DNA of 32,585 bases from Bacteroidota bacterium (GTDB taxonomy: Bacteria; Bacteroidota; Bacteroidia; Bacteroidales; SZUA-534): the NCBI GenBank assembly GCA_003250355.1, contig QKGS01000096.1, forward strand, positions 1-32,585, given 5' to 3'. Shown here in pieces: positions 5,128 through 23,836 of this stretch. Below the pieces are notes generated by a model. The model was not told the DNA's origin and searched no databases. It saw only the letters and a list, made by a program, of their open reading frames with translations. How positions within the stretch are numbered: position 1 is the stretch's first letter; each line of letters begins with the position of its first letter. The translations under genes and the position numbers were made by a program.

Positions 5128-5244
5128 TAACTAAATGATTAACAAAGAAAGGAAAAAGAACGAACCGCCAACAATGTATATAAAACATTTGGCAGAAAGT
5201 GCTATATTTGAAGCTATTACAAGTGAAAATATTTTTTTCGTATT

Positions 5245-5652: not shown

Positions 5653-5768
5653 ATTTAAAAAATATCTTGTGATAGATTTGCTTTTACTTCTTTTAAATTT
5701 ATTGAGTTTATGCCTTTTAACATTGTAAGAAAGCGCCAACATTATCGAATTGTATGTAAGACATTAAA

Positions 5769-5804: not shown

Positions 5805-5829
5805 AAGAGACAAATTTAGAAAATTTAAA

Positions 5830-5985: not shown

Positions 5986-5992
5986 AATACTT

Positions 5993-6541: not shown

Positions 6542-6932
6542 TATTTTCGTTTTTTGCTATGGAGCTAATCATAAGTGATTTAATGGTATATCCCATTTCA
6601 ATTAGTGCAAAATATTGAGCCCATAGTTGATAGTAAAACCCTTTAAACATTTTATGTACCTGATATTTATACTCAATAAGTGTTTGGTTTTGGGGGTAGT
6701 AAACATCAATTTTACCATATAACCTTAGCTTGTGCGAAATAACATACATACCATGATACTCTTCCTGTTTTTCAGATAGTTCATCAATTTTGCGGTGAGC
6801 AGTTTTTCCTTTTTGTTGAGGCTTAGCCGAAAATGCTTCTTCGGTCCCTTCGTCATATATTTGATGCAGGTATATTGAATATGGGCAAAAAATATAATCG
6901 TTGAGCCATGTTATGGGAATGTATGTTTCCAT
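6492..6932 (-). pseudogene. cas4: Cas4 exonuclease remnant lacking the C-terminal cysteine cluster
   Basis: Cas4 trims prespacers and selects PAM ends using a RecB-like nuclease and a 4Fe-4S cluster held by one N-terminal and three C-terminal cysteines. Here the start is intact: METYIPITWLNDYIFCPYSI with C16, then the KGKTAHRKID histidine, GKIDVYY aspartate and LIEYKYQ (E-x-K). After SLMISSIAKN the frame runs into bases that encode Cas1 in another frame and stops at 146 residues. About 30-40 C-terminal residues with the three cysteines are gone. A deletion fusing cas4 to mid-cas1 explains both. Start: ATG at 6932, in the family's usual place. Confidence 0.82.
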
Positions 6933-7284
6933 AGTTAATTGTGTTTGAAAAATGTTTATATCATATGTTACCTTCCCTACGCTCCTACGTAGCTTACGTT
7001 ATTTATAAATATTATTCGGATTACCTCTCCTGCGCTCCTACGGAGCTTGGTTTTTTATCGTGTTATTTATTCTACCATTCTGCTCTACCATTCCTGCGCC
7101 CCTAACGGGGCTATCACACCTCTGCTTTCCGAAACTTTTAATACTATTCAATTTATAAAATGTCCTGTAGGTACACATTGGAACAACAGAATATATTTTG
7201 CAAACCAAATTATAGCTCCGTAGGAGCGTAGAAAATGGATTTATTATTATACCAATGTTATAATATGCATATAAAACAGAAAGA
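6933..7284. repeat. cas12a-cas4 spacer filled with REP-like palindromes
   Basis: The 352-base gap between the cas12a stop and cas4 holds four short palindromes: GCTCCTACGTAGC at 6981-6993, GCTCCTACGGAGC at 7034-7046, GCCCCTAACGGGGC at 7098-7111 and GCTCCGTAGGAGC at 7215-7227. The second and fourth are inverted copies of one another about 170 bases apart, with the GCCCC type between. Elements of this kind (GCTCC-three bases-GGAGC) are widespread in Bacteroidota spacers. Frames that cross this region, including an 88-residue one on the minus strand, are accidental. cas12a and cas4 are normally closer, so the pair is probably a later insertion. Confidence 0.65.
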
Positions 7285-10200
7285 TTATTGTTTATTTTGT
7301 ACAAAAGCCAGCCACTCTTTATTATCTATCTTCAAGTCATTAAACTTGAGTTTAGTAACATCATCGGCTTTGCTAATTTTATGGAGCAGCAGTATCCCTT
7401 TTCGGGCAGTGTTGAATGCTCCGTTTGCATCGGCATCTTTTGGCAATTTATTGTCAACATAACGTGAATCAAAGAACTTTCCATTTTCTTCAACAGGCGA
7501 TATCAGATAATCAATATCGGTTCCTGTTTTAGAATTTCGCATTTGCAGTGTAAGCTTCAAAATGTATATCAGATCTTTAAAGAATTTGCTGTCAGATTTA
7601 CTAACTATTTCATCTTTAATGCAATTACCATTTTCAAAATCAATACCTGCAAATAGTTCCTTAAGTTCATCAGTGAGGTAAACTTTTTTAGTATCCCATT
7701 CACTATTATTTTCAGGGTTTCGGAAGTTTACTAATCGTTCACTATTGCTACAAATAGTCCATTTGGTTTTGGTTTCATCAGCACGGGTTGTAAACTTTTT
7801 ATAATCAATATGAAACTCGAAATAGTCCTGTTGCTTGTTGTAGCATACTTTATCGAAGTTTGAAAAGAATTTCTGACTTTTTTCCACACTTTCGTACTTA
7901 GGGTACAATAGGTTTACAAAACCGGTTGCAGGGTCAATTTTACTGGTATAGTCGGCACTTACATAAAATATAAAACCGCATTGTTTACCTAAATCTTTAA
8001 ATGCTGCAAACTTATTGGTAAGCTGGTAGGCTTTTAATGCTCCGCCGGCTTCCTGCGCATCGTTCTTTTTAAATACCAGATAATTTAGTTTATCAATTAA
8101 AGCTTTTTCAAATTTTTGATACACTTGTTTTTCAACTTTAATGCGTCCTTTTTTAAAGCCAAAATTCAGGTCTTCCATTACAATTATAGCATTATTATCA
8201 ACCATCATTGTAGCTATTTCGTGTACTACTTGCGATAAGTAACCACTTTTCAGCTCCTTAATATTTTCAATGGCATCCCACTCTTTGCGGGATTTAGTAC
8301 GGTCTTTTTCTACGGCATCAAGTTTTTCGTGATAATCTACCGTATGTTCTTTTCTTTCACCGTTTGATATATAACTGCTACTAACCGTATTTAAGGTTTT
8401 TTGCTCCAGTATTTCCCCTTTTTGGTTAATAAGAGTAAGATAAATTAAATGACGTTCGCCACGGTCTAATCCTATTATATTCACATCGGGGTTATTTTGT
8501 AGAAATTGAAGTACATCATTATTTAAACGCTCATTACCTGCACCTTTAAAATTCATGGTAATTGGCACATGAAACTGGAACTTATCAACTGTAAAGCGTT
8601 TGTTTTTTACTATTTCGTAAGGGAAAATACTCTCAGTTTCTCCATCGGTTCTTCGATTTATTTTTTCATTGGCATGGTGAATTGCTGTATTTTCACGCTT
8701 TAGCGACTGTTTACGGAAAAATATTTCGGCTTCGCCATTTAGTTTATATACAACATTGCTCAGGTTACGTTCATCGAACAACATTTTCCAGTAAATAGTA
8801 TGCAAATTTGGTGTACCCTTGCTTTGGGGCGAAAAATCTTTGTTATATATTTGGAACAGATAGAGTTTGCCTTCATTTACTAGCTGGTTGATATAATTAT
8901 CAGATATATTCTCATAAGTTATTTTATATCCTTGGTGCGAAACTTCTTTGTAGAAATAACTTAAATCTTCATAACTATTTGTATCAGAAAAGTTAAAGTT
9001 GAATTGCTTCCAGTCAGGATGCTTATTAATTGATGATTTGAAGAAGTCAATAAGGTTGTGGCAATCTTTAATATTAAAAGAATCTCCTTTCTTATGGGTT
9101 TCTAATTTATAATTCTCTAAAAGCTCACTACTTGGGTTAAATTCATCAATACGAGAATTTGAAAAAAATACTTTAGGAAGCATTTTGTTTGGGCCAGGAA
9201 GCATCTTGTAAACTATTTTTTCAAAATTTTCATCAGAGTTAGTATCCACATAATCCTCAAATATTTTATTGTGCTTTTTATCCATTACCCCAAGGTAGAA
9301 CAAGCCATCTTTTCGGAATAAAACACTACAATTATCCTTTTCCTTATTTTTATCCCATCCATCAAGTAGTGTACTGTTTTCAAAATTCAACTTAAATTTC
9401 TCGGTACTATAAGGTTTCTTAGTCAGGTAATTTCGAACCTTATTGTATAGTGAAATGGTTTGGTTGAGTTGATTGTAAACAGCATCGAATATGCCATAAA
9501 AATGCAAATCTTTATCGGCATTACCGGCAACAGCATCAAAGGGTTTTATAAAATGGATAACATCCATCAGGCTATCTAAAAACTCTTTAATTTGCTGTTT
9601 TGCTTTTTTGTCGGCTGCTAGTTTTTTATCGGTAGGGTAGGCAGTTTTTAATAATGGTTCTACTGCATTGTATTTTTCTACAACAGCATCTAATAAATTA
9701 TTATTGCCATCATCTGCACCAAGCTTTTGAAAATACCAAAGTATTGGGTTTTCTAGCTCACGATTATTTTTTACTTTATTATCGTATTCTTGTAAAGCTG
9801 TTTGTATAGTTTCTATGCTTAGATTGCTCTTTAGCCATTTGTCTTTTTCGTCAAGAGCTTTTGTTGAAAGCTTAGCAGGTAATAGGTTCTTGTCGTAATA
9901 TTCTGCAAGCGCATTTTTAATAATAGACCAATCGCCATATATTTTATTCGATATTTCGGTAAGGCTTGCATCATTCTTAATGTAAACTTTAGTTAAATCA
10001 GAATTTTGCAGTTCGGTAGTAATGTATTTTACTAATTTAAAAATACTTACCTGTTTTCCATCGGTTTCAAATTCTAATAGTTCATCAGTATAAAAGTTTT
10101 GTATTCCTTCTAAAAGCTCGGTATCGTCCTCTATTTCATCTAATACAAAAGAAGCCCCCACTCTATCGCTTAATATCTGTTTAAATAACAGGGTAAGCTT

Positions 10201-10980
10201 TGGCAATTTCTTTGTTTTTTTGTCATCGCCTTTTAATTGTTGATTGTATAAGTTTATATGCTCATTTAAACCTTGAATTTTATCCTTGCCTTCCTCGCTA
10301 ATACCACCCAATAGTGTATTATAAATAGTAATGCCGTTTTGAGTAAGGCATTGGTTAAAGTATTCAATCGTAAAAAAGCTTTCAATTGGAACTCCTTGTA
10401 TTACAGACTCTAGTTCTTGTGCAATATTGTCAAAAGTGAGTTCAGCTTGCGATATTTTTTCAAAGGCCTTAATATTATCAAGATACTTTGGTAGGTTTTC
10501 ATGTATCAGTCTGTATGAAATTGCCGTTGATTTATCATCGGCAGAGTACATATTCTCTCGGTTTTTATGAAAGCCTCCAAAATAGGTGGTGAAGTTTTTA
10601 AACTTACCAACCAGTTCTTTATCTTTTTCGTCGCTAAGCCAAGTAATTAAGTCGTCTTTTATTAATTCTTTTTTATCAATATTTTTGAAACGAGCTACTA
10701 TGTTTTCATCAGAGCTTTTATTAAAAGCATCGGCTACTTGTTTGCGTAGTTTCGTTTGCAAACTTGTAAATAGTTTTTTCTCTTTTTCGTCTTTTTGCTG
10801 CTTAAAGTATAAATCACTAAACTCTTGTAAATCGGATAAGGTTAAATATCCTAAAGCACTCTCGATAAAATCTTTGTGATATCGGTCAATTATCTTTTTC
10901 ACCTCTTTGTAGTCGCTGGCGCGTTGCTCATCTTCACTAATAAAGCCTTTTTCTTCAAAACGATACTCTTTTGGTTTCAT
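7285..10980 (-). CDS. cas12a: Cas12a (Cpf1) effector, lacking the N-terminal WED-I segment
   Basis: The 1231-residue protein matches Francisella-type Cas12a from about Fn residue 35 to the C-terminus. Seen: FTTYFGGFHKNRENMYSADD in REC1, PNKMLPKVFFS in the PAM-interacting region, FQFHVPITMNFK with the crRNA-processing H804 and K812, RuvC-I GLDRGERHL (D839), bridge helix GYLSQVVHEIA, RuvC-II IVMEDLNFGFK (E936), Nuc arginine QMRNSKTGT (R1148) and RuvC-III DADANGAFN (D1184). It guides DNA cleavage by a self-processed crRNA. The N-terminus is odd: MKPKEYRFEEKGFISEDEQRA replaces the usual 30-odd residues with the SKTLRFELIP strand that holds the crRNA handle. TAA directly precedes the ATG, and no upstream frame encodes the lost strand. 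Only a poor -7 match (TATCTTTA) lies upstream. Family certain; activity doubtful. Confidence 0.95.
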   Translation of the reverse strand: MKPKEYRFEEKGFISEDEQRASDYKEVKKIIDRYHKDFIESALGYLTLSDLQEFSDLYFKQQKDEKEKKLFTSLQTKLRKQVADAFNKSSDENIVARFKNIDKKELIKDDLITWLSDEKDKELVGKFKNFTTYFGGFHKNRENMYSADDKSTAISYRLIHENLPKYLDNIKAFEKISQAELTFDNIAQELESVIQGVPIESFFTIEYFNQCLTQNGITIYNTLLGGISEEGKDKIQGLNEHINLYNQQLKGDDKKTKKLPKLTLLFKQILSDRVGASFVLDEIEDDTELLEGIQNFYTDELLEFETDGKQVSIFKLVKYITTELQNSDLTKVYIKNDASLTEISNKIYGDWSIIKNALAEYYDKNLLPAKLSTKALDEKDKWLKSNLSIETIQTALQEYDNKVKNNRELENPILWYFQKLGADDGNNNLLDAVVEKYNAVEPLLKTAYPTDKKLAADKKAKQQIKEFLDSLMDVIHFIKPFDAVAGNADKDLHFYGIFDAVYNQLNQTISLYNKVRNYLTKKPYSTEKFKLNFENSTLLDGWDKNKEKDNCSVLFRKDGLFYLGVMDKKHNKIFEDYVDTNSDENFEKIVYKMLPGPNKMLPKVFFSNSRIDEFNPSSELLENYKLETHKKGDSFNIKDCHNLIDFFKSSINKHPDWKQFNFNFSDTNSYEDLSYFYKEVSHQGYKITYENISDNYINQLVNEGKLYLFQIYNKDFSPQSKGTPNLHTIYWKMLFDERNLSNVVYKLNGEAEIFFRKQSLKRENTAIHHANEKINRRTDGETESIFPYEIVKNKRFTVDKFQFHVPITMNFKGAGNERLNNDVLQFLQNNPDVNIIGLDRGERHLIYLTLINQKGEILEQKTLNTVSSSYISNGERKEHTVDYHEKLDAVEKDRTKSRKEWDAIENIKELKSGYLSQVVHEIATMMVDNNAIIVMEDLNFGFKKGRIKVEKQVYQKFEKALIDKLNYLVFKKNDAQEAGGALKAYQLTNKFAAFKDLGKQCGFIFYVSADYTSKIDPATGFVNLLYPKYESVEKSQKFFSNFDKVCYNKQQDYFEFHIDYKKFTTRADETKTKWTICSNSERLVNFRNPENNSEWDTKKVYLTDELKELFAGIDFENGNCIKDEIVSKSDSKFFKDLIYILKLTLQMRNSKTGTDIDYLISPVEENGKFFDSRYVDNKLPKDADANGAFNTARKGILLLHKISKADDVTKLKFNDLKIDNKEWLAFVQNKQ

Positions 10981-10982
10981 TT

Positions 10983-11117
10983 AAAGATACTGCGGGAATA
11001 TACCATAAGCTCGATACATTGATTTCATTTACCAATATTCCGGCCATCGGAGCTGATGGTTTGTGGAATAAAGGGACAAAAACCAAGGTTCTTAACGTAC
11101 GACTGAAAAAAAATTAA
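10983..11117 (+). pseudogene. 3' fragment of the rSAM-associated lipoprotein gene
   Basis: The frame ending in the TAA at 11115-11117 encodes KDTAGIYHKLDTLISF, FTNIPAIGADGLWNKG and finally NVRLKKN. The stop overlaps the ATG of the radical SAM gene (TAATG), so the two were translationally coupled. Lipoproteins of the rSAM/lipoprotein system (TIGR04134 type) end in a similar W.kG...nV.Lk pattern after beta-rich domains, and they precede this radical SAM enzyme. Only about 44 codons remain. Upstream the bases are the start of cas12a on the other strand, so the lipobox and main domains are lost. Assignment to the lipoprotein is inferred mostly from position. Confidence 0.6.
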
Positions 11118-12229
11118 TGCACCAAATTAGTTTAAAACAAAAGCTTGCTCTTGAGATATTCAGAAAATATCGAAAAACCGAAGCCCGGTTACATAACCTG
11201 AACTACCTGTTTTGGGAGTGTACTTTACGGTGTAATATCAGCTGTTTGCATTGCGGTAGCGATTGTAAGCACGAAGCCTCAACACCCGATATGCCTTTAA
11301 ACCATTTTCTGCAAGCACTCGACAACATAACACCAATAGTAGAACCTAACAAAACCAATATAGTGTTAACAGGTGGCGAACCTTTATTACGCAGCGACCT
11401 CGAAGAATGCGGTAAAGCCTTTTACGAACGCGGATTCCCATGGGGGTTTGTATCAAATGGTATTGCATTAACACCCAAACGGCTTGAAGGCTTAATGAAA
11501 AGCGGACTACGTGCTGCAACCATTAGTTTCGATGGTATGGAACAATCGCACAATTGGTTCAGAAATACACCTATTGGTTATAAAAAAGCAAAAGAAGCCA
11601 TTCACATGATTGCTCAACAAGATATTGATTTTGATACAGTTACCTGTGCTAATCAACGAAATTTCGGCGAGTTACATCAAATAAAAAATGAACTTTTAAG
11701 AATGGGTGTTAAGCGTTGGCGTATTTTTACAATTACCCCAATAGGCAGAGCAAAGCAAAACCCGGAACTACAACTGAATGCATTACAATTCAAACAACTG
11801 TTCGACTTTATTGAAAATGTACGTAAACAGGGCGACATTTCACTTAACTATGGCTGCGAAGGATATCTGGGAGCTTACGAAGGAAAAGTAAGGGACAATA
11901 TGTTCTTTTGCCGTGCCGGAATAAGAATTGGTTCAGTTTTAGCCGATGGTTCCATATCGGCCTGCCCTAACCTGCGGAGCAATTATATTCAGGGCAATAT
12001 TTACCGTGACAGTTTCAGAGATGTTTGGGAAAACCGCTATCGGAATATGCGTAACCGCTCATGGACAGAAACCGGGATTTGTGCTAACTGTAAAAGCTAT
12101 AAATACTGCGAAGGTAGCGGTTTACATTTACACAACGAAGATAGTAACGAGGTTCTGTTTTGCCATTTAAATAAAATAAACCAAGGGGCTTGTATTGAAA
12201 AGCTTCTCAACTCATCAAATACCAATTAA
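11117..12229 (+). CDS. Radical SAM/SPASM enzyme of the rSAM/lipoprotein system (TIGR04133-like)
   Basis: The protein has 370 residues. Residues 35-46 (ECTLRCNISCLHC) give the radical SAM CxxxCxxC site at C39, C43 and C46, and the LTGGEPLLR loop follows. The C-terminal SPASM region has ACPNLRSNYIQGNI, GICANCKSYKYCEGSG and a final CH for auxiliary Fe-S clusters. The N-terminal LKQKLALEIFRKYRK helix and overall layout match the Bacteroidota family paired with a lipoprotein, thought to modify a peptide or protein substrate that is not known. It overlaps the end of the lipoprotein remnant by TAATG, so here the enzyme has probably lost its partner and its promoter. The ORF itself is intact. Confidence 0.82.
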   Translation: MHQISLKQKLALEIFRKYRKTEARLHNLNYLFWECTLRCNISCLHCGSDCKHEASTPDMPLNHFLQALDNITPIVEPNKTNIVLTGGEPLLRSDLEECGKAFYERGFPWGFVSNGIALTPKRLEGLMKSGLRAATISFDGMEQSHNWFRNTPIGYKKAKEAIHMIAQQDIDFDTVTCANQRNFGELHQIKNELLRMGVKRWRIFTITPIGRAKQNPELQLNALQFKQLFDFIENVRKQGDISLNYGCEGYLGAYEGKVRDNMFFCRAGIRIGSVLADGSISACPNLRSNYIQGNIYRDSFRDVWENRYRNMRNRSWTETGICANCKSYKYCEGSGLHLHNEDSNEVLFCHLNKINQGACIEKLLNSSNTN

Positions 12230-12231
12230 AC

Positions 12232-12363
12232 GCAATTATTGTTGATTCACCACTAAATACCGCATTAAGCATTTTATATGAAAATATTTCATTTAATGTA
12301 GATAATTATTTTTACAAAACATTTTCAACCATAGAGGCAGCTGAAAAATGGATTAAAGCCTAA
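12232..12363 (+). pseudogene. C-terminal remnant of a STAS/SpoIIAA-like small protein
   Basis: Just after the radical SAM stop an open frame without any start reads NAIIVDSPLNTALSILYEN, then a VDNYFYKTFSTIEAAEKWI end. This VDSPL.TAL..LYE...F.TIEAAEKWL pattern is the end of a Bacteroidota protein family of roughly 120-140 residues with a SpoIIAA/STAS-like fold. Only the last 43 codons are present, and the frame upstream runs into the radical SAM gene. The gene therefore lost its 5' two thirds by a deletion ending near 12230. Function of the parent family is not established. Confidence 0.5.
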
Positions 12364-12671
12364 AATATGCACTAAAATTAAAGAAATCTAAGTATTATCA
12401 TATACACTTTCGATTACAATATGTTTTAATTAGTTTAATTAAAATACTCATACTCACATATTATTACTATAAAAATACATCATCCCATTATTATATATTG
12501 TCAATATCAAATAACTATTTTGTACACTGTCATTATTGAAATTGACTTTAATCATTTTGAATTATGATTTACAATTTTTCGCAATGTTTACAGTAACTGA
12601 ACTGTAACATACAAAGCCAATTGCCGTAAATACAGACAGGAAACAAATTAATATTTTAAAAGGGAGTTGAT
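12364..12671. other. AT-rich spacer, no gene seen
   Basis: About 300 bases, very AT-rich, with stops in all frames and no recognised RNA. The last 15 bases carry AAAAGGGAG before the ATG at 12672, a purine-rich ribosome-binding site of unusual strength for this window. No good TAnnTTTG promoter was found. Confidence 0.4.
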
Positions 12672-13037
12672 ATGAAGAAGCAAGGTTTTATTTTAGCAGC
12701 AGTTTTAGTTTCTCTGTCTCTTTTTAGCAGAGTTACAGCCAATACTTTAGTTATTGAAAATTATGCCCCTGTATTTACAAGTAAGGCAAATACATCGGCA
12801 CTTGAAGACTCTGTGTATACCTACTACATTACTACCTCCGACAACAACGGTGATGCTCTAATGGTATATGCAAAGCAACTGCCTTCATGGCTTTCATTAA
12901 GTTACAACTATGACGGCACCGCAATACTTACCGGAACCCCCGACAACAGTAAATTAGGAAAACACAAAGTGGAATTATTGGTAACCGACGCTTTTGCTAC
13001 CACAATTCAAAGCTTTGAAATAACCGTACAATACTAA
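12672..13037 (+). CDS. Small secreted protein with one putative Ig (He_PIG-like) domain
   Basis: The protein has 121 residues. A signal peptide (MKKQGFILAAVLVSLSLF, cut likely near SRVTAN) is followed by one beta-sandwich: NYAPVFTSKANTSALEDSVY, TTSDNNGDALMVYAKQLPSW, LSYNYDGTAILTGTPDNSKLGKH (pattern positions 76-98) and VELLVTDAF. The order APVF..., PSWLSL, TGTP, VTD is that of He_PIG/cadherin-like domains in surface adhesins. Such domains normally occur in large multi-domain proteins; here one stands alone. There is no T9SS or lipobox sorting signal. It has its own ribosome-binding site and a strong terminator after it, so it is a single-gene unit. The role is unknown. Confidence 0.72.
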   Translation: MKKQGFILAAVLVSLSLFSRVTANTLVIENYAPVFTSKANTSALEDSVYTYYITTSDNNGDALMVYAKQLPSWLSLSYNYDGTAILTGTPDNSKLGKHKVELLVTDAFATTIQSFEITVQY

Positions 13038-13054
13038 CGATGCACTTGCATTTT

Positions 13055-13095
13055 ATAAACAAACAAACCGGCTTATTGCCGGTTTGTTTGTTTAT
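13055..13095. terminator. Strong bidirectional hairpin terminator
   Basis: An 18-base perfect stem (ATAAACAAACAAACCGGC at 13055-13072 and its complement at 13078-13095) with a TTATT loop begins 18 bases after the stop of the Ig-domain gene. GC-rich top and T-rich 3' arm fit an intrinsic terminator for the plus strand. Confidence 0.75.
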
Positions 13096-13184
13096 GTTAA
13101 ACCCTAACCATACATTTAAATTGAAATACTAAAGTTAAATGAAGGATTATCAAAGCTTTATAGAGTTTGTGTTGTTAACTCTTC

Positions 13185-13384
13185 GGGTTCAACCCCACGG
13201 CAACCACATTTAACTTTTTTAGTTTCTTTGGCAAACCAAAGAATAATTTTTCAACCCTAAAAGCACAAAAACCACTAAAAAATTCAAATTAATTATATCA
13301 AAAAAATTGCTTTGCAATTTTTTTTGTGTTTTTCGGGCCTTTCGTGGTGATATGTTTTAAATGCGGTTGCCCTGGGTTCAACCC
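13185..13384. repeat. MITE-like element with about 28-base inverted ends
   Basis: The left end (GGGTTCAACCCCACGGCAAC, then CACATTTAA, 13185-13213) pairs with the inverted right end (13356-13384, read as GGGTTGAACCCAGGGCAACC, then GCATTTAAA). The interior has smaller hairpins: TTCTTTGGCAAACCAAAGAA near 13220-13245 and AAAATTGCTTTGCAATTTT near 13303-13323. No open frame of use is inside. Size (about 200 bases), inverted ends and lack of coding fit a miniature inverted-repeat element or a large palindromic spacer repeat. No clear target duplication could be read. Confidence 0.6.
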
Positions 13385-13466
13385 GCTATAATGCGTTGCA
13401 TTAGAAAGATACTGGTTACTAATTGATTAAAGCTAATTTAAAAAACCTAATGCATAATGCGGGTTA
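13380..13466. repeat. Imperfect inverted repeat beside the vWA gene end
   Basis: AACCCGCTATAATGCGTTGC plus ATTAG near 13380-13404 is partly complementary to CTAATGCATAATGCGGGTT near 13448-13466. The second arm overlaps the stop region of the vWA gene, so the structure may end its transcript. The arms have a mismatch and length difference. Confidence 0.4.
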
Positions 13467-14825
13467 AAACAGTACCACTTTATCGGCGCCACCCGATATT
13501 ACGGTAAACTCACGTTTCGAAGTATATACCGACTCCCGGGCATTCTTTGGTCGGCATATTGCAATATATTTGCCAGGCAATATTGCCAGTGTTTGAATGT
13601 TATCGTTACTATTCAGGTTCATTATCCACTCCAGTTTATTACCCGACTGCTTATATAAAGCTCCCACAGGTGGTGCCGATGCCACAAATGTTATCAAACC
13701 CGGATTGGGTATAAACATAGAATTGGTCTTACTTTGGTCTATTACAATATTATCAAACTTCATTCGGGGTATGGTCAATAATTCTATATCGTAATTACCA
13801 ACAATATATTTTTCCTCACTGTTTATTGACTGTACATTGAGAGTTTCTTTATAGCCATTCTTGCGAACTATAAATTGCAAATCGCGATATTCGGGAGCTG
13901 TCGTTTTTACAATTAATGACCCTCGGGGTGCATCTATTTTAACGGTATTGTGCTCACCCGGATTTATTATCACACTATCTTTTCTTACCGGCGGTATAGT
14001 ATGCACCACAATATCGTAAGTTGGAACAGGGTCTATTTTCAAAGTATCGGGATTACCCTTATAATTTATAGTATGTATAAAATTATACATAACAGCTCCC
14101 GAAAAACGGTCGTAAAAAGTCATATTAACATTACTTTCGGTAGGCCGTTTATTCATATCGAGCAGGTCAACCTGTATGCTTGTTGTATTCAAGGCTTGCG
14201 AAACTACTACATCTAATACCTCTTTAAACCTTTGCTCATTTGAAGCATCGTAATAACGCCCCACACAATCAAATGTATCCTTAAACTCATCATTGAGCCC
14301 TACTCCTATTACAAATGGTTTTAAAATAATTCCCTGGCTTTGCAATGCAAGTGAAACAGCACATGGGTCACCATCGCACGACTCTATCCCATCGGTAATT
14401 AGTATTATTATATTGCGGCAATCTTTACTCTTTGGAAAATCGGTTGCACTTTGCTCCAACGAATAGGCTATTGGTGTAGTTCCCTTTGGGTTTACAGCAT
14501 CAAGCTTATCTTTTATCCGCTTTGCATTATCTTTTGCAAATGGCACTTCAAGCTTTGTATCATCGCATCGCTGTGGAGGAACCGGCTTTTGATGTCCGTA
14601 CACTCTCAGAGCCATTTCTATATTTTTATCGAATTTCAAACTATCTACCATATCGGAAAGTAAATCCTGAGCTACTTTCATTTTTGTACCCGACTCCCAC
14701 TTGGCAAGCATACTTTGTGAACCATCGAGTACAAACAGTATACGTGTTAACTGCGGAACTTGCGTTTCTTGTGCCTCAATTGTTAGAACTGTAAAAATAG
14801 AAAGCAAAAATATTATCCTCTTCAT
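13464..14825 (-). CDS. Secreted von Willebrand factor A domain protein
   Basis: With the ATG at 14825 the product has 453 residues and begins with a signal peptide (MKRIIFLLSIFTVLTIEAQ). The longer frame from 14894 adds 23 residues before the signal and is not favoured. The vWA domain follows: RILFVLDGSQSM carries the MIDAS DxSxS, with later KGTTPIAYSLEQ and IILITDGIESCDGDPC. The second half is beta-rich, resembling PEGA/Ig-like modules: VDLLDMNKRPTESNVNMTF, KIDAPRGSLIVKTTAPE and AILPGKYIAICRPKNA. Such proteins are periplasmic or surface metal-dependent binders. The gene stands alone, diverging from the nucleoid-associated protein gene. Partner unknown. Confidence 0.8.
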   Translation of the reverse strand: MKRIIFLLSIFTVLTIEAQETQVPQLTRILFVLDGSQSMLAKWESGTKMKVAQDLLSDMVDSLKFDKNIEMALRVYGHQKPVPPQRCDDTKLEVPFAKDNAKRIKDKLDAVNPKGTTPIAYSLEQSATDFPKSKDCRNIIILITDGIESCDGDPCAVSLALQSQGIILKPFVIGVGLNDEFKDTFDCVGRYYDASNEQRFKEVLDVVVSQALNTTSIQVDLLDMNKRPTESNVNMTFYDRFSGAVMYNFIHTINYKGNPDTLKIDPVPTYDIVVHTIPPVRKDSVIINPGEHNTVKIDAPRGSLIVKTTAPEYRDLQFIVRKNGYKETLNVQSINSEEKYIVGNYDIELLTIPRMKFDNIVIDQSKTNSMFIPNPGLITFVASAPPVGALYKQSGNKLEWIMNLNSNDNIQTLAILPGKYIAICRPKNARESVYTSKREFTVISGGADKVVLF

Positions 14826-16198: not shown

Positions 16199-16915
16199 TT
16201 AATGAAAATATGCTTCCGCTACTTCTAACTTTTCAATAGTTCCTATATCGAACCAGTACGTTTGGTTGTGATTATAGCAACTGATAGTTTCCCGCTGAGC
16301 AAGTTCTACATACCATTGTATAATATTAAACTTCTTTTGCTCCGGAATATAGTTCAATATCTCGGGGCTGAGTATATGAATACCACTAAAAGCATACTTG
16401 TTTAAACCATCGGAGATTAAGCCTTTCGGCAAAATATCGCCGCTGCTGTCATTAGTCCACCCCTTTAAAATATTATTGCTTGTTAGTAAATACCGGCTTG
16501 TTGACCTATCCCTTACAGCAAGTGTTGCCAGCGATTTGTTTGTATGATGAAACTCCAACATTTTACCATAATCAATACCCGATAATATATCGGCATTTTG
16601 CAATAAAACAGATTCATTACCCATCAATAAACCCGATGCCTTCTTTAACCCTCCTCCCGTATCGAGCAACTCATCGGTCTCATTGGAAATATGAATTTTT
16701 ATGCCAAACGAATTATTTTCTTCAATAAACGAAATTATCCGGTTTGCCAAATGGTGTACATTTATTACTATTTCTGTTACCCCTGCACTTATTGCTTTCT
16801 CAATATTATGCTGCAACAAAGGCTTTCCATTAACTTTTACTAAAGCTTTAGGTATGGTTTCAGTAAGTGGCTTTAAGCGGGTACCTAAACCTGCCGCAAA
16901 TATCATTGCTTTCAT
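16199..16915 (-). CDS. Sugar-1-phosphate nucleotidyltransferase (MurU-like)
   Basis: The protein has 238 residues. The N-terminus MKAMIFAAGLGTRLKPLTE with PKALVKVNGKPL is the nucleotide-binding signature of NTP-transferases. NADIL (about residue 111) supplies the metal-binding aspartate, and a final YWFDIGTIEKL block closes the fold. The closest match in layout is MurU, which makes UDP-MurNAc from MurNAc-1-phosphate; mannose- or glucose-1-phosphate enzymes are the alternatives. The upstream gene is an AmgK-type sugar kinase fused to RapZ-C, and AmgK plus MurU form a known cell-wall recycling route, so context favours MurU. A 53-residue gene lies between them. Confidence 0.75.
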   Translation of the reverse strand: MKAMIFAAGLGTRLKPLTETIPKALVKVNGKPLLQHNIEKAISAGVTEIVINVHHLANRIISFIEENNSFGIKIHISNETDELLDTGGGLKKASGLLMGNESVLLQNADILSGIDYGKMLEFHHTNKSLATLAVRDRSTSRYLLTSNNILKGWTNDSSGDILPKGLISDGLNKYAFSGIHILSPEILNYIPEQKKFNIIQWYVELAQRETISCYNHNQTYWFDIGTIEKLEVAEAYFH

Positions 16916-16933
16916 ATATTATTCAGATAACGA

Positions 16934-17095
16934 CTAAATATCGGGGCAAATTCTAAGTTCCGAAAATGAAAACTTCACTTTCTTAGCTTTACAAAGCTTG
17001 CCCTTTTTATTCGACAACCTTTTACATTTTAAACATACAAACTTATATGTTTTGGGCTCTTTATACTTCTTTTTTCTACACTTTTTCTTACTCAT
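16934..17095 (-). CDS. 53-residue basic CxxC protein, translationally coupled
   Basis: This frame is below the length usually tracked. The ATG at 17095 overlaps the stop of the RapZ-C fusion gene by eight bases, and its TAG ends 18 bases before the nucleotidyltransferase start. The protein is lysine-rich, with cysteines at 6, 21, 24, 35 and 50, including a CLKC pair (residues 21-24) and LCKAKK. This suggests a zinc-ribbon-like fold. Coupled overlap, tight spacing and clean cysteine pattern argue that it is real. I do not recognise a named family; function unknown, possibly linked to amino-sugar recycling through its neighbours. Confidence 0.62.
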   Translation of the reverse strand: MSKKKCRKKKYKEPKTYKFVCLKCKRLSNKKGKLCKAKKVKFSFSELRICPDI

Positions 17096-18512
17096 ATTCT
17101 TCGAATATATCTTGCTCTCTATGCCATAAAACCACTTTTATATCATATTTGTTCACAATATATTTTGCAAAAGCTTCGGCACTATAAACCGACCGGTGCT
17201 GCCCTCCTGTACACCCAAAGCTTACACTCAAATGATCAAACTTTCGTTCTATATAATTTTCAACAGTTAACTCTGTTACTTTTATAACATTTTCAACAAA
17301 CTCATCGATACCTGTCGATTTAAAAAATTCAATAACCTGATTATCTCTCCCTGTTAAACTCTTGTATTCATTATATCGCCCCGGATTATCTATTCCGCGA
17401 CAATCAAATACAAATCCTCCTCCATTACCCGAAGGGTCAACAGGATACCCTTTTTTATATGAAAAACTTGTTACCCTTACAGTTAACTTATCAACTTTCG
17501 CAAATACCTCATCTTTAGGAACTTTTAGTATTGATGCTAACTCTTTCAAATAAGGCAAACTAACCGGCACATTACTGTCATTAAGCAAAAATTTCAGGTT
17601 TTCTATTGCATATGGTATACTTTGAATAAAATGTGGTTTACGCTCGTAATATCCCCTAAAACCATATGCACCAAGCACTTGTAATGTTCGCTGCAATGCG
17701 AATCCGTAAAAACTCTTTTTTAGGTATTCATTAGAAATATTTCGTACCTCCTGAACCTTTTTACAATAAAAATCGAACAATTCTTTTCGGGTTTCATTAG
17801 GTATTTGAGCCTTTGCCTGAAACAACAACGAAGCGGCATCGTAACAAATTGGTCCCTCCATTCCACCTTGAAAATCGATAAAATAAACCGCACCATTTTT
17901 CAATAGAATATTTCGCGACTGAAAATCGCGAAACATAAACCCCTCTGTATCAAGTGTCGCCAAAAAATCAATTAGTACATCAAAGTCGGCTTGCAATTTG
18001 TACTCATCGAACTCTATACCGGTTAATTTCAAGTAATTGTATTTAAAATAATTCAAATCCCATGTTATTGGTGTTCTTTCAAATTTTTTCACCGGATAAC
18101 AATACGAATAATCAATACTACTACCTGCTACCAGCTGCATTTTAACCAACTCTTCCAAAGCATTTTTATACAAATTTAAAACTACATCGGTTAACTTACC
18201 GTTACACTCAATAACCCTATTGTACAAAGAATCATTACCAATATCCTCAACCAAATAATATAAACCGTCGGCAGAAACAGAAAGAATATCGGGAACCGAA
18301 ACATTATTTTGTTTAAAATGTCGGGTAAACTCAATATAGGCTTTATTCTCTTGCACTTTCGGATTAAAAACCCCTAATACCGACTCATTATTATAAGTCA
18401 TTCTAAAGTATCTTCTATCCGACCCGCTCAGTGGTAAAGCCAACATTGAAGCAGGCTCACACCCTGCATGTTCTTTAAATAATTTTACTAATTCCCTATT
18501 CTCTGATTCCAT
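17088..18512 (-). CDS. Amino-sugar kinase (AmgK/APH fold) fused to a RapZ C-terminal domain
   Basis: The protein has 474 residues in two parts. Residues 1-330 are an aminoglycoside-phosphotransferase-like kinase: SGSDRRYFRMTYNNESVLGV is the nucleotide loop, FMFRDFQSRNILL the catalytic loop (D then N) and VYFIDFQGGMEGP the metal-binding aspartate. From about 347 (TVRVTSFSYKKGYP) to the end is the RapZ C-terminal domain, with GFVFDCRGIDNPGR and FGCTGGQHRSVYSAE. In E. coli this domain senses glucosamine-6-phosphate. Together with the MurU-like gene downstream, the kinase likely makes MurNAc/GlcNAc-1-phosphate from salvaged sugars. The RapZ N-terminal GTPase-like domain is absent. Databases often label such proteins RapZ only. 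Domains sure; substrate inferred. Confidence 0.82.
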   Translation of the reverse strand: MESENRELVKLFKEHAGCEPASMLALPLSGSDRRYFRMTYNNESVLGVFNPKVQENKAYIEFTRHFKQNNVSVPDILSVSADGLYYLVEDIGNDSLYNRVIECNGKLTDVVLNLYKNALEELVKMQLVAGSSIDYSYCYPVKKFERTPITWDLNYFKYNYLKLTGIEFDEYKLQADFDVLIDFLATLDTEGFMFRDFQSRNILLKNGAVYFIDFQGGMEGPICYDAASLLFQAKAQIPNETRKELFDFYCKKVQEVRNISNEYLKKSFYGFALQRTLQVLGAYGFRGYYERKPHFIQSIPYAIENLKFLLNDSNVPVSLPYLKELASILKVPKDEVFAKVDKLTVRVTSFSYKKGYPVDPSGNGGGFVFDCRGIDNPGRYNEYKSLTGRDNQVIEFFKSTGIDEFVENVIKVTELTVENYIERKFDHLSVSFGCTGGQHRSVYSAEAFAKYIVNKYDIKVVLWHREQDIFEEYE

Positions 18513-18666: not shown

Positions 18667-21600
18667 ATGAAAAAAATAATATTTACCCTAATAGTCTCTA
18701 TTATATACTCAACATACTTTTGGGGCCAAGACCAACAGAAAGACGTTGTATTTGAACAAATAACCAATGAAAGCGGACGCAGTTTGGGTTTTATAACAGG
18801 TATAGTGCAAGACCAAAACGGATTTATGTGGTTCTCGACCAGAAAAGGTCTTTACCGCTACAACGGTTATTCATATAAACTTTTCAGAAATAACCGTACC
18901 GACAGCCTATCACTCCCATTTAACGACATTGCACACTTATATTACGACAACAACAACACTCTTTGGCTTAGACATTACGATGAATTAGCTCCATTCAAAG
19001 ACGAAAAAAGAATTTACACTATCGACAGCATTACAAAACACAAATACGATATAGAAGTAAAAATAGTTCAAGACAAATACGGCAACTATTGGGTAGGCCC
19101 TACCGGCGACGGTTTATATATGTATAATAAAGAAGAAAATGTATTTCGTAAATTCACCTGCCCCCCTCCCACTTACACAAAACAATCATGGCACTTTTTC
19201 GACTCTGTTCTTAACCGCGACGAAGGCATAGCCTGCATTGAAAACCCCGGCAACAACTGCAACACCAATTTTAGCTTCACAATACCCGCCGATGGATATT
19301 ACTTTGTAGCATCGTCGGGCGAAATAGACAAATATGGCAAATACGACTTCGGCTCTCTATATAAAGGCAATGAACTTATTTGGGAACTAAGCAATTCCAG
19401 TATGTGGGCCGGGGCTAACCTGAAAAACCGTTTTGAAGTAAAACCACTATTTCTGAAAAAAGGAAAATACTCTATCCGCTATAAATCAGATATGGCTCAC
19501 TCTTGCTCGCAATGGGAAGGTGAAGCTCCCAATAAAATAAGCTTTTGCGGAATTAAAATTGTTGAAATAAACAAAAATGAATTCAAAAAAATAATCGACA
19601 ACATTGAAATAGAAAAAGACAGCAATTACATTAATACCAACAAAATAAAAGATATTATTATTGATAAAAATGGCCGTTTTTGGGCATTAACAAATATTGG
19701 TATTGAACAGTTCAATTATAAAACCGGAAGCTTCTCTTTCCACCCAATTAACTTCAACGAAGTATTTGGATCAAATATGGAAAATGAATACATGAATATT
19801 TTTCGTAATAAAACAGGGCAATTTTGGATTGGCTCTATGCATGGATTATTAATGCACGACCACCTTTGGGGTCGCAATCTGGTTTTTCAAAATAGCGAAA
19901 ACACAGAAGTACTCACCAGCAACTCAATATATTCTGTATTTGAAGACTCACGAAGCAATATTTGGATAGGTACCGACAACGGAATAAATATTTATAATCC
20001 TGAACGAAAAACTATTGAAAAAATTCAGGCTAACAACAAAAACCGCCTTTACGACAACCGCATAATACAAATATTTGAAGACGACTCCAAAAACCTGTGG
20101 GTAGCAACATTTGAAGGATTAAACCGCCTGATAAAAGACCCTTTTGTATTTACCAACCTGGGTTACAATGCTATTCACACCTTTCCTGCCTACCACGATT
20201 CATATTCCAATATTTGGTACACTCTGGAGAACAAAATATACCGATATTCACGTACACTTACTGTTCAGGACGAATACAAACTACCCGATTACCTGTTTAG
20301 CACCGACAACTTTTCGGGCGATAAATTCTATTCGGTTGCCGATATGGCTGCAACTAAAAACAATAACCTATGGATAGCTACCGATAACAGAGTAAGCAAA
20401 TTCAACCAAAACAACCGAAAAATTGAATTTTCATACCCAACCGGTGCCGTTATTGTCAATACAGACAGTATTAAAGACCGTGTTTCACACGTATGCTACA
20501 TAAAAAAAAGCAACGAAGTATTTTCATTCAGCCCCAAAGGTATTTTCAGTATCAATGATTCTACAAATAAAAGAACATCATTTACCCCCTTCCCTATTTT
20601 AGTCGATTTTATTGATGAAGTTGACGTAAACTATGTTAAAAACATAATTCTAGATAATAATGAAGATATTTGGATAAGAACCGCCGATGGAATTTCCAAA
20701 TTCACAACTTCAAACCATTCTCTCAAATCATTCTATGAATTTGATTATAAAATAAAAGGTGGCCCTATTTCAAAAGGTGAAATGGCTATTGACAAAAGTG
20801 GTAATATTTGGTTCTCGGCTCTACCCAATATTTACAAAATTATCCCCCACCTCGATTCTGTTCAGCAGTTTACCTGTAACTATGAACACGACTGGGGTAC
20901 TTCAAATGTGAAAATAGGTAATGGCATTATTTGGATATACGGAACCAACGGCGTATATATGTTCAGCGAAAATGACAATTCGTTCAAATACATTTCTATC
21001 GACAACGGACTTATTGACAATAATATCAACAGCCTGTTTGAAGACAGTCTCGGATATATTTGGTTTACAAGCCTTAAAGGGCTATCGAAATACGACATAA
21101 AAGACAACAACTGTAAAAATTTCTTTACCTCAGCCGATTTTACCACTCATAGATTTCTAGGCAATCCAAACGATTTTTATGTTAATTCAAATGAAAAAAT
21201 ACTCTTCACCACTAACGGTTTTATTTCATTTTACCCCGACAGTATTAACCTTAGTATTCCCAGAGTTGTAATTGACCGCTTTACCATAAGAGGCAAAGAC
21301 TACCCGCTCGATAGTCTTCCATATTACAAACGAAATATTAAATTAAAATATAACCAAAACTTTATTGGAATTGAATTTGCTGTTCTCGACTATACCGAAC
21401 CATCGGCAAACCAGTATCAGTATATTTTAGAAGGTTTGGAAGACGAATGGAACAAAACCGATGCCAATAACCGAAAAGCCAACTATTCGGGTATAGCTCC
21501 GGGTAAATATAAATTCAGGGTAATAGGTTCCAACAACGATAAAACATGGAATATTGAGGGTGCTGAAATAACTATAATTATCACTCCTCCATGGTATAAA

Positions 21601-22536
21601 ACCATTCTTGCTTACATTTTTTACGCTATTCTTATTACTGTTTCTATTGTTTTATTTATAAAAATAAGGGAACGCCAATTAAAAGAAGAAAAACGTGTTC
21701 TTGAAGAAAAAGTGAAAGAGCGAACCCGCGAAATAGAAAAACAAAAAGAAGAACTAGCGCACAAAAACAAAGATATTCTTGACAGTTTGCGATACGCCAA
21801 ACGTATTCAACACGCTATTTTACCATCGCTTGAAAAAAACACCCAAAACCTCTCTGACCATTTTCTTCTGTGGCGTCCTCAAAATATTGTAAGTGGCGAT
21901 TATCACTGGTCGGCACACCACGAAAACCTTACTCTTATTGTTGCTGCCGATTGTACCGGACACGGTGTGCCGGGTGCTTTTATGAGTATGCTTGGCGTAG
22001 CATTTTTAAATGACATTGTAAACAATAAAAATGTTGTCGACCCCGATAAAATACTCAATATATTACGTAATCAAATAATTCGCCAGTTGAGTCAAGAGGT
22101 AGAAGGCAATGAAAACGGCGAAGGGGCTAAAGACGGTATGGATCTTTCGCTTTATGTTATTGACCACTCAAATATGAAATTACAATTTGCAGGTGCATAC
22201 AACCCGCTTTATATTATACGTGATGCCGAACTTACTGAACTCAAAGCCGATAAAATGCCTATCGGAAATCACATAAAAATAGATACTCCATTTACCGTAA
22301 AAGAATTTGAACTTAAAAAAGGCGACTGCCTTTACAACTTCTCCGACGGATATCCCGACCAATTCGGTGGCGAAACCGGTAGAAAATTTATGACCAAAAA
22401 CTTTAAAATACTACTTACCGAAATATATAATAAACCTATGAGCGAACAACGCGAAATTCTTAATTCCCGTATTGAAGAATGGATGGGAAATGAAGAACAA
22501 ATAGACGATATTATTATTGTTGGAGTAAGAGTATAA
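18667..22536 (+). CDS. Propeller sensor with transmembrane segment and SpoIIE-type phosphatase
   Basis: The protein has 1289 residues. A signal peptide (MKKIIFTLIVSIIYSTYFWG) is followed by periplasmic propeller repeats (GFMWFSTRKGLYRYNG, NIWIGTDNGINIYN, YIWFTSLKGLSKYD). At about 163-300 a different domain is inserted (NFSFTIPADGYYFVASSGE, KKGKYSIRYKSDM). A Y_Y_Y domain (YQYILEGLEDEWNKTD) leads to one membrane helix at about 980-1000, then a coiled coil (residues 1000-1035). The PP2C SpoIIE domain has GDYHW, VAADCTGHGVPGAFMS, DGMDLSLYV and QIDDIIIVGVR. Extracellular signals thus likely control Ser/Thr dephosphorylation, perhaps of an anti-sigma antagonist, instead of a histidine kinase as in hybrid two-component sensors. 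No partner gene is adjacent; folC follows 16 bases later. Confidence 0.88.
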   Translation: MKKIIFTLIVSIIYSTYFWGQDQQKDVVFEQITNESGRSLGFITGIVQDQNGFMWFSTRKGLYRYNGYSYKLFRNNRTDSLSLPFNDIAHLYYDNNNTLWLRHYDELAPFKDEKRIYTIDSITKHKYDIEVKIVQDKYGNYWVGPTGDGLYMYNKEENVFRKFTCPPPTYTKQSWHFFDSVLNRDEGIACIENPGNNCNTNFSFTIPADGYYFVASSGEIDKYGKYDFGSLYKGNELIWELSNSSMWAGANLKNRFEVKPLFLKKGKYSIRYKSDMAHSCSQWEGEAPNKISFCGIKIVEINKNEFKKIIDNIEIEKDSNYINTNKIKDIIIDKNGRFWALTNIGIEQFNYKTGSFSFHPINFNEVFGSNMENEYMNIFRNKTGQFWIGSMHGLLMHDHLWGRNLVFQNSENTEVLTSNSIYSVFEDSRSNIWIGTDNGINIYNPERKTIEKIQANNKNRLYDNRIIQIFEDDSKNLWVATFEGLNRLIKDPFVFTNLGYNAIHTFPAYHDSYSNIWYTLENKIYRYSRTLTVQDEYKLPDYLFSTDNFSGDKFYSVADMAATKNNNLWIATDNRVSKFNQNNRKIEFSYPTGAVIVNTDSIKDRVSHVCYIKKSNEVFSFSPKGIFSINDSTNKRTSFTPFPILVDFIDEVDVNYVKNIILDNNEDIWIRTADGISKFTTSNHSLKSFYEFDYKIKGGPISKGEMAIDKSGNIWFSALPNIYKIIPHLDSVQQFTCNYEHDWGTSNVKIGNGIIWIYGTNGVYMFSENDNSFKYISIDNGLIDNNINSLFEDSLGYIWFTSLKGLSKYDIKDNNCKNFFTSADFTTHRFLGNPNDFYVNSNEKILFTTNGFISFYPDSINLSIPRVVIDRFTIRGKDYPLDSLPYYKRNIKLKYNQNFIGIEFAVLDYTEPSANQYQYILEGLEDEWNKTDANNRKANYSGIAPGKYKFRVIGSNNDKTWNIEGAEITIIITPPWYKTILAYIFYAILITVSIVLFIKIRERQLKEEKRVLEEKVKERTREIEKQKEELAHKNKDILDSLRYAKRIQHAILPSLEKNTQNLSDHFLLWRPQNIVSGDYHWSAHHENLTLIVAADCTGHGVPGAFMSMLGVAFLNDIVNNKNVVDPDKILNILRNQIIRQLSQEVEGNENGEGAKDGMDLSLYVIDHSNMKLQFAGAYNPLYIIRDAELTELKADKMPIGNHIKIDTPFTVKEFELKKGDCLYNFSDGYPDQFGGETGRKFMTKNFKILLTEIYNKPMSEQREILNSRIEEWMGNEEQIDDIIIVGVRV

Positions 22537-22552: not shown

Positions 22553-23836
22553 ATGACATATAAAGAAACCACCGAGTATTTGTTCAATTTGTTACCCGTT
22601 TTTCAACGCGATGGCAAAGCTGCATACAAAAACAATCTTGACAATACCATAGCTCTCGACAACTACTTTGGAAATCCTCACAAATACTTTAAAAGTATAC
22701 ATATTGCCGGAACCAACGGAAAAGGGTCTACCTCACATATGATATCGTCGGTACTGCAAACCGCCGGTCTGAAAACAGGACTATACACGTCGCCACACCT
22801 TAAAGATTTCAGAGAACGTATTAAAATAAACGGAATACCTGTTTCTGAAAATGATATTGTTGAGTTTGTTGGCGAACACTCTAAAATAATTGAACAATTG
22901 CGTCCTTCGTTTTTTGAAATTACCGTAGCTATGGCTTTCTACTTTTTTAAAAAGCATAAAGTAGATATTGCTGTAATTGAAACCGGAATGGGCGGACGAC
23001 TCGACTCTACAAATATTATAACCCCGCTTGTGTCGGCTATTACTCACATAGGTTTTGACCACACACAATTTTTAGGCGATACCATAGAAAAAATAGCAAT
23101 TGAAAAAGCCGGTATCATAAAAAAAATGACTCCTGTTGTAATTGGTGAATGCCCTGCTGAGGCCAAACTTGCCATTAAACGTAAAGCCGAAGAAATGAGT
23201 GCTCCATTCTGTTGTGCCGACGAACGATTACAGGTTAACAACATAAAACAAACCAACGACCATCAGGAAATTATTATTAAAAACTCACAAAGTGGAACCA
23301 GTTTCAACTATTCTTTGGATTTAATGGGCGATTATCAACAAAAAAACATATTGGTTGCTCTCACTATTCTTGAAATACTAACTCCTATGCTGGGCATTGA
23401 AAAACAGCATATTGTACAAGGCTTATGCATTGTTGCCGAAAATACCGGACTTATGGGGCGTTGGCAAACCATAAATAAAAAACCACTCACTATTTGCGAT
23501 ACCGGACACAATATCGACGGGCTTCGATTTGTTACAAACCAGCTTAAAAAACTGGAATACAATAAACTTCACCTTGTTATTGGTTTTTCGAACGATAAAA
23601 ACATTGAAGAGCTAATAAGCCTATTCCCCGACAATGCTCTATATTACTTCTGCAAACCCGATATTCCGCGTTGCGAAAGTGCCGATAAGCTTTATGAAAC
23701 AGGAATAAAACTCAACCGAAATTCGCTAAAATTTAACAGTGTAAAAGAAGCTTTTTCGCAGGCAAATTTGAATTCAGCCCACGATGATATTATATTTGTT
23801 GGTGGCAGCACTTTTGTTGTTGCTGAAATTGTATAA
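22553..23836 (+). CDS. folC: Folylpolyglutamate synthase / dihydrofolate synthase
   Basis: The protein has 427 residues, the normal length. The ATP loop HIAGTNGKGSTSHM (about 58-70) and GLYTSPHLKDFRERI are FolC signatures, followed by VIETGMGGRLDSTN, the ITHIGFDHTQFLG stretch with DHTQFLGDT, and ICDTGHNIDGL. The enzyme adds glutamate to dihydropteroate and to folates in the cytoplasm. It follows the SpoIIE sensor by 16 bases and precedes the TonB-C-like gene by 16, so all three may be one transcript, although their functions are unrelated. Confidence 0.93.
   Translation: MTYKETTEYLFNLLPVFQRDGKAAYKNNLDNTIALDNYFGNPHKYFKSIHIAGTNGKGSTSHMISSVLQTAGLKTGLYTSPHLKDFRERIKINGIPVSENDIVEFVGEHSKIIEQLRPSFFEITVAMAFYFFKKHKVDIAVIETGMGGRLDSTNIITPLVSAITHIGFDHTQFLGDTIEKIAIEKAGIIKKMTPVVIGECPAEAKLAIKRKAEEMSAPFCCADERLQVNNIKQTNDHQEIIIKNSQSGTSFNYSLDLMGDYQQKNILVALTILEILTPMLGIEKQHIVQGLCIVAENTGLMGRWQTINKKPLTICDTGHNIDGLRFVTNQLKKLEYNKLHLVIGFSNDKNIEELISLFPDNALYYFCKPDIPRCESADKLYETGIKLNRNSLKFNSVKEAFSQANLNSAHDDIIFVGGSTFVVAEIV

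Follow-up and report, generated by a model that had tools for sequence, protein, structure and literature searches.

The minus strand of a 32,585-nucleotide contig from a Bacteroidota bacterium (QKGS01000096.1, assembly GCA_003250355.1, order Bacteroidales; this whole stretch is the window below) encodes a 474-amino acid (aa) fusion of an AmgK-like sugar 1-kinase with the C-terminal domain of RapZ (RapZ-C), followed by a small cysteine-containing protein and a MurU-like enzyme. The locus very probably accounts for the final steps of a MurU-type route of peptidoglycan salvage. Within it, we see an even chance that RapZ-C is a phosphatase of N-acetylmuramic acid 6-phosphate (MurNAc-6P), which would render the fusion bifunctional with a MurNAc 1-kinase. 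In this scheme, AnmK, encoded elsewhere in the genome, would turn anhydroMurNAc into MurNAc-6P; no MurQ etherase, which would degrade this product, was found in the genome. RapZ-C would then remove the 6-phosphate through a C434-X5-R440 loop, the tethered kinase domain would phosphorylate the anomeric position of MurNAc, and the MurU-like enzyme would make uridine diphosphate (UDP)-MurNAc, the fusion thus combining the functions of MupP and AmgK in a single polypeptide. The fusion, its conservation, the gene order and the distribution relative to AnmK and MurQ are observed; the substrates, the catalysis by RapZ-C and the order of the steps are what we infer here. In open-licence PubMed Central literature, no description of a kinase–RapZ-C fusion was found.

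An AmgK-like kinase fused to a RapZ C-terminal domain

The fusion gene (17088..18512, minus strand, as are the other parts of the locus) was delineated with Pfam, NCBIfam and an AlphaFold2 (AF2) model. Its kinase domain (residues 1-325; 17538..18512; bounded by Pfam, alignments and VIA-align) matches Pfam APH (PF01636) over the cut-off at residues 31-250 (E 1.8e-13) and superposes on 3csv with a VIA-align Z of 30.2 and a root-mean-square deviation (rmsd) of 2.6 over 308 residues. Alignments of 48 and of 50 fusions show little or no variation in the kinase motifs RDFQSRN and IDFQGG, and R195-D196, N201 and D213 are invariant in the alignment of 50. This is the APH fold with intact catalytic motifs expected of an AmgK, and AmgK (NF045759) is the best-matching NCBIfam kinase model, albeit at 67.2 bits against a cut-off of 550 that is not reached. 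The sequence thus suggests an AmgK-like anomeric (1-)kinase with MurNAc or N-acetylglucosamine (GlcNAc) as putative substrate. As expected of a MurU, the 238-aa sugar-1-phosphate nucleotidylyltransferase (16199..16915; Pfam, NCBIfam) is encoded together with an anomeric kinase at this locus, and MurU (NF045761) is its best NCBIfam model, which it matches at E 1.1e-44 and 152.9 bits, short of the curated cut-off of 250. Since both scores lie below the NCBIfam equivalog cut-offs, these enzymes are homologues of AmgK and MurU rather than certified members.

A sequence-only reading of this DNA had announced the fusion and its MurU-like partner, and both were borne out, the former by the presence of APH and PF22740 in one 474-aa frame. 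PF22740, the RapZ C-terminal domain, covers residues 344-467 (17112..17483) with an E of 1.2e-30 and 106.6 bits against a gathering cut-off of 27. The RapZ model NF003828 scored 93.5 bits (cut-off 244) and aligned at model positions 155-277 only; the N-terminal Walker domain of RapZ was absent from the fusion in Pfam and NCBIfam searches. In the AF2 model of the fusion (mean predicted local distance difference test score, pLDDT, 93.9; predicted template modelling score 0.76), RapZ-C alone has a mean pLDDT of 94.8 and superposes on crystal structures of E. coli RapZ with a VIA-align Z of 19.6-19.8, an rmsd of 1.6-1.8 and 33-34% identity. The pairwise alignment with E. coli RapZ also revealed a Gly-rich insertion, G364-G366 (17415..17423), which is invariant in 50 of 50 fusions, has no counterpart in E. 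coli RapZ and is followed by FVFDCR.

One role known for RapZ in E. coli, that of an RNA-binding RNase adapter, here attached to a kinase, appears extremely improbable. While R184 of E. coli RapZ is retained as R372 in all 50 fusions and the K170 position holds K or R in 44 of them, the basic tail RxRxKNxQxRHRTxxKRK (quoted in a passage of PMC7525490) was not seen in the fusions, whose C-terminal tail has a net charge of -4 in the window protein and of -0.44 on average over the 50. Besides, the RNA-binding region is described as restricted to Enterobacteriaceae (in part of PMC7073468). The lack of both the basic tail and the Walker domain led us to reject the adapter role.

In E. coli RapZ, the pocket comprises H190, T248, G249, H252 and R253, with C247 near (passages of PMC5737377 and PMC9841335). 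When these residues were mapped via the pairwise fusion–RapZ alignment, C434, T435, G436, H439 and R440, the equivalents of C247, T248, G249, H252 and R253, proved invariant in 50 of 50 aligned fusions. They belong to a C-X5-R-S loop (C434-T-G-G-Q-H-R440-S441; 17190..17213), and its motif GCTGGxHRS occurs in 78/78 loci of a first set of RapZ-C loci (the window plus loci from L061-L140); the set of named genomes introduced below was chosen partly by this motif and hence is no test of its conservation. Cysteine-dependent phosphatases carry a C-X2-G-X2-R-S signature loop between a strand and a helix. In the AF2 secondary structure, the loop of the fusion lies at just such a junction, between strand 427-434 and helix 440-455.

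Distribution of the fusion, AnmK and MurQ

We surveyed a near-genome sample (60 genomes, own included), a phylum sample (296 genomes, each at least 90% complete) and named genomes. Among the near genomes, 56 matched the query and 53 held both domains, in one frame in 51 cases and as adjacent genes in two (G023, G041); two further genomes (G021, G040) had the kinase only, and in G028 the match was cut by the contig end. In the phylum sample, RapZ-C was found in 36 genomes, all of which are among the 37 with a close kinase (E<1e-39). In 63 further genomes of this sample, all listed under one family, the kinase is remote (E 1e-25 to 1e-9) and RapZ-C is lacking. The named genomes contain at least 587 loci that encode a relative of the query; in the best 80 of these, the match covers both domains, and in 76 of the 80 it is held by one ATG-started open frame of at least 450 aa. 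By title, these 80 loci are mostly from Bacteroidota, with Acidobacteriaceae, Elusimicrobia, Delongbacteria and Calditrichaceae also represented. Given its recurrence across near and named genomes, the fusion is no chance event, misassembly or frame artefact. Its carriers include genomes of Bacteroides, Parabacteroides, Phocaeicola and Prevotella, which makes the fusion relevant to how common gut bacteria recycle their wall.

Of the 78 loci of the first set, 67 have RapZ-C fused with the kinase and 11 have it as a separate gene. The next gene downstream, on the same strand, is MurU-like in 57 of these 78 and in 51 of the 80 named loci (only the directly downstream neighbour was inspected for MurU, and two of the 29 other named loci end at a contig edge). 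Several loci show the order kinase, RapZ-C, MurU as separate genes (e.g. L093, L110, L113-L118), and a Bacteroidaceae metagenome-assembled genome (MAG) encodes kinase, RapZ-C and MurU-like parts in one frame of ~760 codons (L229:5992-8271). Both domains are also present in two genomes that keep them apart, on different contigs (G239) or 547 kb from each other (G330), and this co-occurrence rules out that kinase and RapZ-C are tied by position alone. In a clustering of neighbours from 161 loci, no gene cluster other than that of the anchor genes reached more than 13 loci, and AnmK was absent from all 160 fetched loci (each up to ~13.6 kb; tblastn with the AnmK of the own genome).

Some loci have additional parts. 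In one relative, the kinase–RapZ-C protein (736 aa; L105:6076-8283, minus strand) bears an N-terminal B3/4 domain. A 120-129-aa protein is encoded between the fusion, or the small cysteine gene, and MurU at L074:7160-7522, L082:5745-6134 and L091:5516-5893; the L082 member, the only one searched, had no Pfam or NCBIfam match. A haloacid dehalogenase-type (HAD) gene beside MurU in L063 was considered as MupP and ruled out, being an inorganic diphosphatase by NCBIfam, over the cut-off.

MurQ converts the MurNAc-6P made by AnmK to GlcNAc-6P; the AmgK and MurU steps depend on the prior action of MupP (passages of PMC5371409 and PMC13041923). In E. coli K-12 without murQ, MurNAc is recycled no further than MurNAc-6P (a passage of PMC5371409). 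In the phylum sample, AnmK was present in 207 and MurQ (E<=1e-50) in 210 of the 296 genomes. Kinase and RapZ-C were found in 13/13 genomes with AnmK and without MurQ, as opposed to 13/194 genomes with both (Fisher p 7e-14); because the genomes are related, the test was repeated by family, with the same outcome (7/7 vs 2/42, p 4e-7). The own genome has AnmK, and MurQ was not found in it. Both domains likewise occurred in 35 of the 37 near genomes with AnmK and without MurQ (MurQ counted at >=280 bits), the two misses being G028, with its truncation at a contig end, and G036, which is 70% complete. Conversely, AnmK or MurQ was found in none of the kinase genomes that lack RapZ-C, neither in the 64 of the phylum sample (the 63 of one family plus G068) nor in the two near ones, which together span four families. 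Among fusion genomes that by title fall outside the phylum, AnmK was present in 7/8, a count with no base rate. The miss is L214, whose RapZ-C part lies in a frame of only 71 codons; two more loci that were searched, from an Ignavibacteriales MAG and an unplaced bacterium, have short matches only, each beginning within 4 bases of a contig start.

In view of the genomes with AnmK, without MurQ and with kinase and RapZ-C, these bacteria probably have to convert MurNAc-6P back to MurNAc, and the kinase–RapZ-C module looks, by this distribution, like an outlet for MurNAc-6P. Such an outlet into the kinase requires a phosphatase, and MupP-like proteins are patchy in these genomes: of the 37 near genomes, 14 have a HAD protein that matches the MupP model (NF009696) at E<=1e-10, four have one at >=70 bits and none has one over the cut-off of 359. 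That cut-off was passed in 0/60 near genomes and is insensitive, given that a Caulobacter control also fell below it though a MupP homologue is listed for Caulobacter (in part of PMC13046382). As for the AnmK gene of the own genome, it overlaps by 11 bases an upstream 579-aa gene whose likeness to M23-type peptidases was judged by eye (both at L252:3627-6414, contig G000:C70).

Catalysis, sensing or scaffolding by RapZ-C

The idea of a phosphatase loop in RapZ is already in print, and its link to MurNAc-6P and an AmgK-like fusion is what we propose. Khan and Gorke (2020; PMC7199280, in part) likened the RapZ pocket to a tyrosine-phosphatase loop and suggested hydrolysis of glucosamine-6-phosphate (GlcN6P) as a hypothesis. 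According to passages of PMC9841335, the C247A and C247S variants of E. coli RapZ are inactive, and density in the pocket of a C-terminal domain crystal with GlcN6P likely belongs to a transformed product. Besides, phosphatase activity is attributed to the homologue YvcJ (in a passage of a citing paper, PMC7525490), and for HpaP such activity is named in the title of a paper.

Several observations weigh against catalysis. The E. coli variants, Cys mutants included, also lost binding of GlmZ RNA (same passages of PMC9841335), so the evidence from these mutants is confounded. H190 is replaced by Gly in 50/50 aligned fusions; at least one fusion outside this alignment, L105, has His at this position. 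Searches of the fusion against Pfam and NCBIfam returned no phosphatase family at E<=1, and the structural likeness of the modelled RapZ-C to phosphatases is weak. Dual-specificity phosphatases (DUSP14, DUSP1, DUSP7, DUSP8 and others) appear in the VIA-align list with Z values of 4.7-5.2 over 87-90 residues; they rank behind phosphofructokinase, which reaches 6.4, and behind some unrelated P-loop folds, which reach 5.8. A Z below 8 may, as the program warns, reflect a common arrangement, and values near 5 therefore decide nothing on a phosphatase fold; in the DUSP7 match (4y2e), C232 falls within two residues of C434, as estimated from the ends of the alignment range and not from a residue alignment. 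The distribution, for its part, links MurNAc-6P to the module as a whole, and less directly to RapZ-C on its own. Neither AnmK nor MurQ was found in 7/36 (phylum) and 8/53 (near) kinase–RapZ-C genomes, which thus have no tested source of MurNAc-6P; by analogy with Tannerella forsythia, which uses a MurK-type kinase (in part of PMC5790795), such a kinase may operate there. Finally, other HAD phosphatases could serve the MurNAc-6P step, among them a HAD protein of the own genome that scores 96.6 bits to the MupP model.

Alternatively, RapZ-C could be an allosteric sensor of GlcN6P, another amino-sugar phosphate or a UDP-sugar that adjusts the kinase and couples salvage to de novo supply. We consider this possible and clearly less likely than catalysis. 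The E. coli C-terminal domain binds GlcN6P with a dissociation constant of 10 nM (in part of PMC7073468), the pocket residues T248, G249, H252, R253 and C247 are all retained, and RapZ-C occurs only together with the kinase in the phylum sample (36/36), all of which would suit a sensor. However, E. coli RapZ needs the H190 that the 50 aligned fusions have replaced by Gly, and its Cys requirement (C247S being inactive) fits catalysis. The linker between the domains (residues 331-340) is poorly predicted, with a mean pLDDT of 58, so that a fixed kinase–RapZ-C interface finds no support in the model, which we count against a sensor. Besides, the joint absence of AnmK and MurQ from all 64 + 2 kinase genomes lacking RapZ-C is a link not expected of a GlcN6P sensor, a point qualified by the 7/36 and 8/53 RapZ-C genomes that also lack both. 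On balance, the distribution fits enzymatic handling of MurNAc-6P better than a general GlcN6P sensor.

It is rather improbable that RapZ-C is a non-catalytic scaffold for binding or dimerisation, holding a phosphorylated sugar or the MurU enzyme without regulation or turnover. The C-terminal domain of E. coli RapZ interacts with itself via the strand 179-182, YVFD (in part of PMC5737377), the matching FVFD stretch is largely conserved in the fusions, and the triple fusion with MurU would accord with such a role. Yet scaffolding alone accounts neither for the invariance of C434 and the other loop residues nor for the link to AnmK and MurQ.

If RapZ-C does act as a MurNAc-6P phosphatase, the dephosphorylation of MurNAc-6P in those Bacteroidota that have AnmK and lack MurQ could be assigned to an enzyme, and a missing step of wall recycling would be filled within one protein. 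The printed hydrolysis hypothesis for E. coli RapZ (PMC7199280, in part) also becomes directly testable, with a protein that lacks the RNA-binding tail. In a wider proposal, which we hold tentatively and rate somewhat below an even chance, RapZ-C would be a cysteine-dependent sugar-phosphate phosphatase, and the fusion would move the phosphate of MurNAc from C6 to C1 by hydrolysis and rephosphorylation. This would provide a MupP-independent bridge from AnmK to MurU in Bacteroidota, Acidobacteria and Elusimicrobia, and the RapZ sensor of E. coli would derive from an ancestral amino-sugar phosphatase, so that what now regulates wall-precursor supply would once have been an enzyme.

The small cysteine protein, neighbouring genes and known systems

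The gene for the 53-aa Lys-rich protein (16934..17095; open reading frame and alignment of relatives) begins 8 bases before the fusion gene ends, at the position given by the sequence-only reading, and this overlap suggests translational coupling of the two. That reading had also held that the small gene may be part of the system, and the frame is indeed kept in relatives: seven loci of the first set have it at the end of the fusion gene, before MurU, and C6, C21, C24 and C35 are invariant in 7/7 aligned proteins. A model built from these seven matched 73/294 genomes of the order at E<=0.01. Among the 30 best-scoring loci, which were fetched out of the 73 (43 left out), 23 adjoin the fusion, four MurU only (one of them a fragment at a contig end) and three neither; without the five model members, 18/25 adjoin the fusion. 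The MurU-only cases include G379, where three other genes stand between the small Cys gene with MurU and the upstream kinase and RapZ-C, which are two separate genes (L254:5747-11175, minus strand). Third-position changes dominate close pairs of the small gene (11 of 12 differences in L142/L143; in this codon comparison, L147 of the 30 loci had no small frame and some N-termini were shortened by the choice of start). Together with the four invariant Cys, this bias rules out a chance frame. No Pfam or NCBIfam family scored above cut-off, and the small protein represents a real Lys-rich family, which probably binds zinc. It is a conserved accessory of the fusion/MurU locus. The parts of the locus are confirmed as genuine at the coordinates reported here.

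Divergent from the fusion, the window encodes a regulator with a two-component propeller and a SpoIIE phosphatase (18667-22536, plus strand) and, after it, a Mur-ligase-family protein (22553-23836, plus strand). Further away lie Type V-A CRISPR genes (5993-10980, minus strand): Cas12a is full-length (1231 aa), Cas4 is short (146 aa), and a 182-aa Cas1 frame matches only about positions 47-171 of 317; in 4800-7400 and 10900-13500, only two-copy imperfect repeats were found. The arrangement suggests an effector whose adaptation module has decayed. At 3110-5094, an Eco47II-type restriction endonuclease adjoins a cytosine methylase with an N-terminal MerR-like helix-turn-helix.

The MurNAc pathway of T. 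forsythia (MurT, MurK, MurQ, AmgK, MurU) likewise belongs to the Bacteroidota, and the AmgK/MurU route is stated for it in PMC7670621; RapZ does not occur in the text of that paper, and its passages on the pathway name no MurNAc-6P phosphatase for T. forsythia. The fusion is nevertheless present in a MAG of Tannerella sp. (L186). With E. coli RapZ and B. subtilis YvcJ, the fusion shares the fold of the C-terminal domain (as judged from E. coli RapZ structures) and the pocket loop GCTGGxHRS. Unlike E. coli RapZ, it has neither the Walker domain nor the basic RNA-binding tail, Gly replaces H190, and the Gly-rich insertion is present. Tyrosine and dual-specificity phosphatases resemble it in the C-X2-G-X2-R-S loop between strand and helix, and differ in that the fusion matches no sequence family of cysteine phosphatases and has Z values in the range of common arrangements. 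Another close parallel is the AmgK-MurU-MupP route of Pseudomonas: as there, AnmK is present, MurQ was not found and an AmgK-like kinase stands beside a MurU-like gene. Unlike there, the insensitive MupP cut-off was passed in none of the near genomes, both enzymes stay under the NCBIfam AmgK and MurU cut-offs, and RapZ-C is fused to the kinase. The kind of system, a MurU pathway, is known, and what is new in it is the fusion of RapZ-C to the kinase, together with the small Cys protein.

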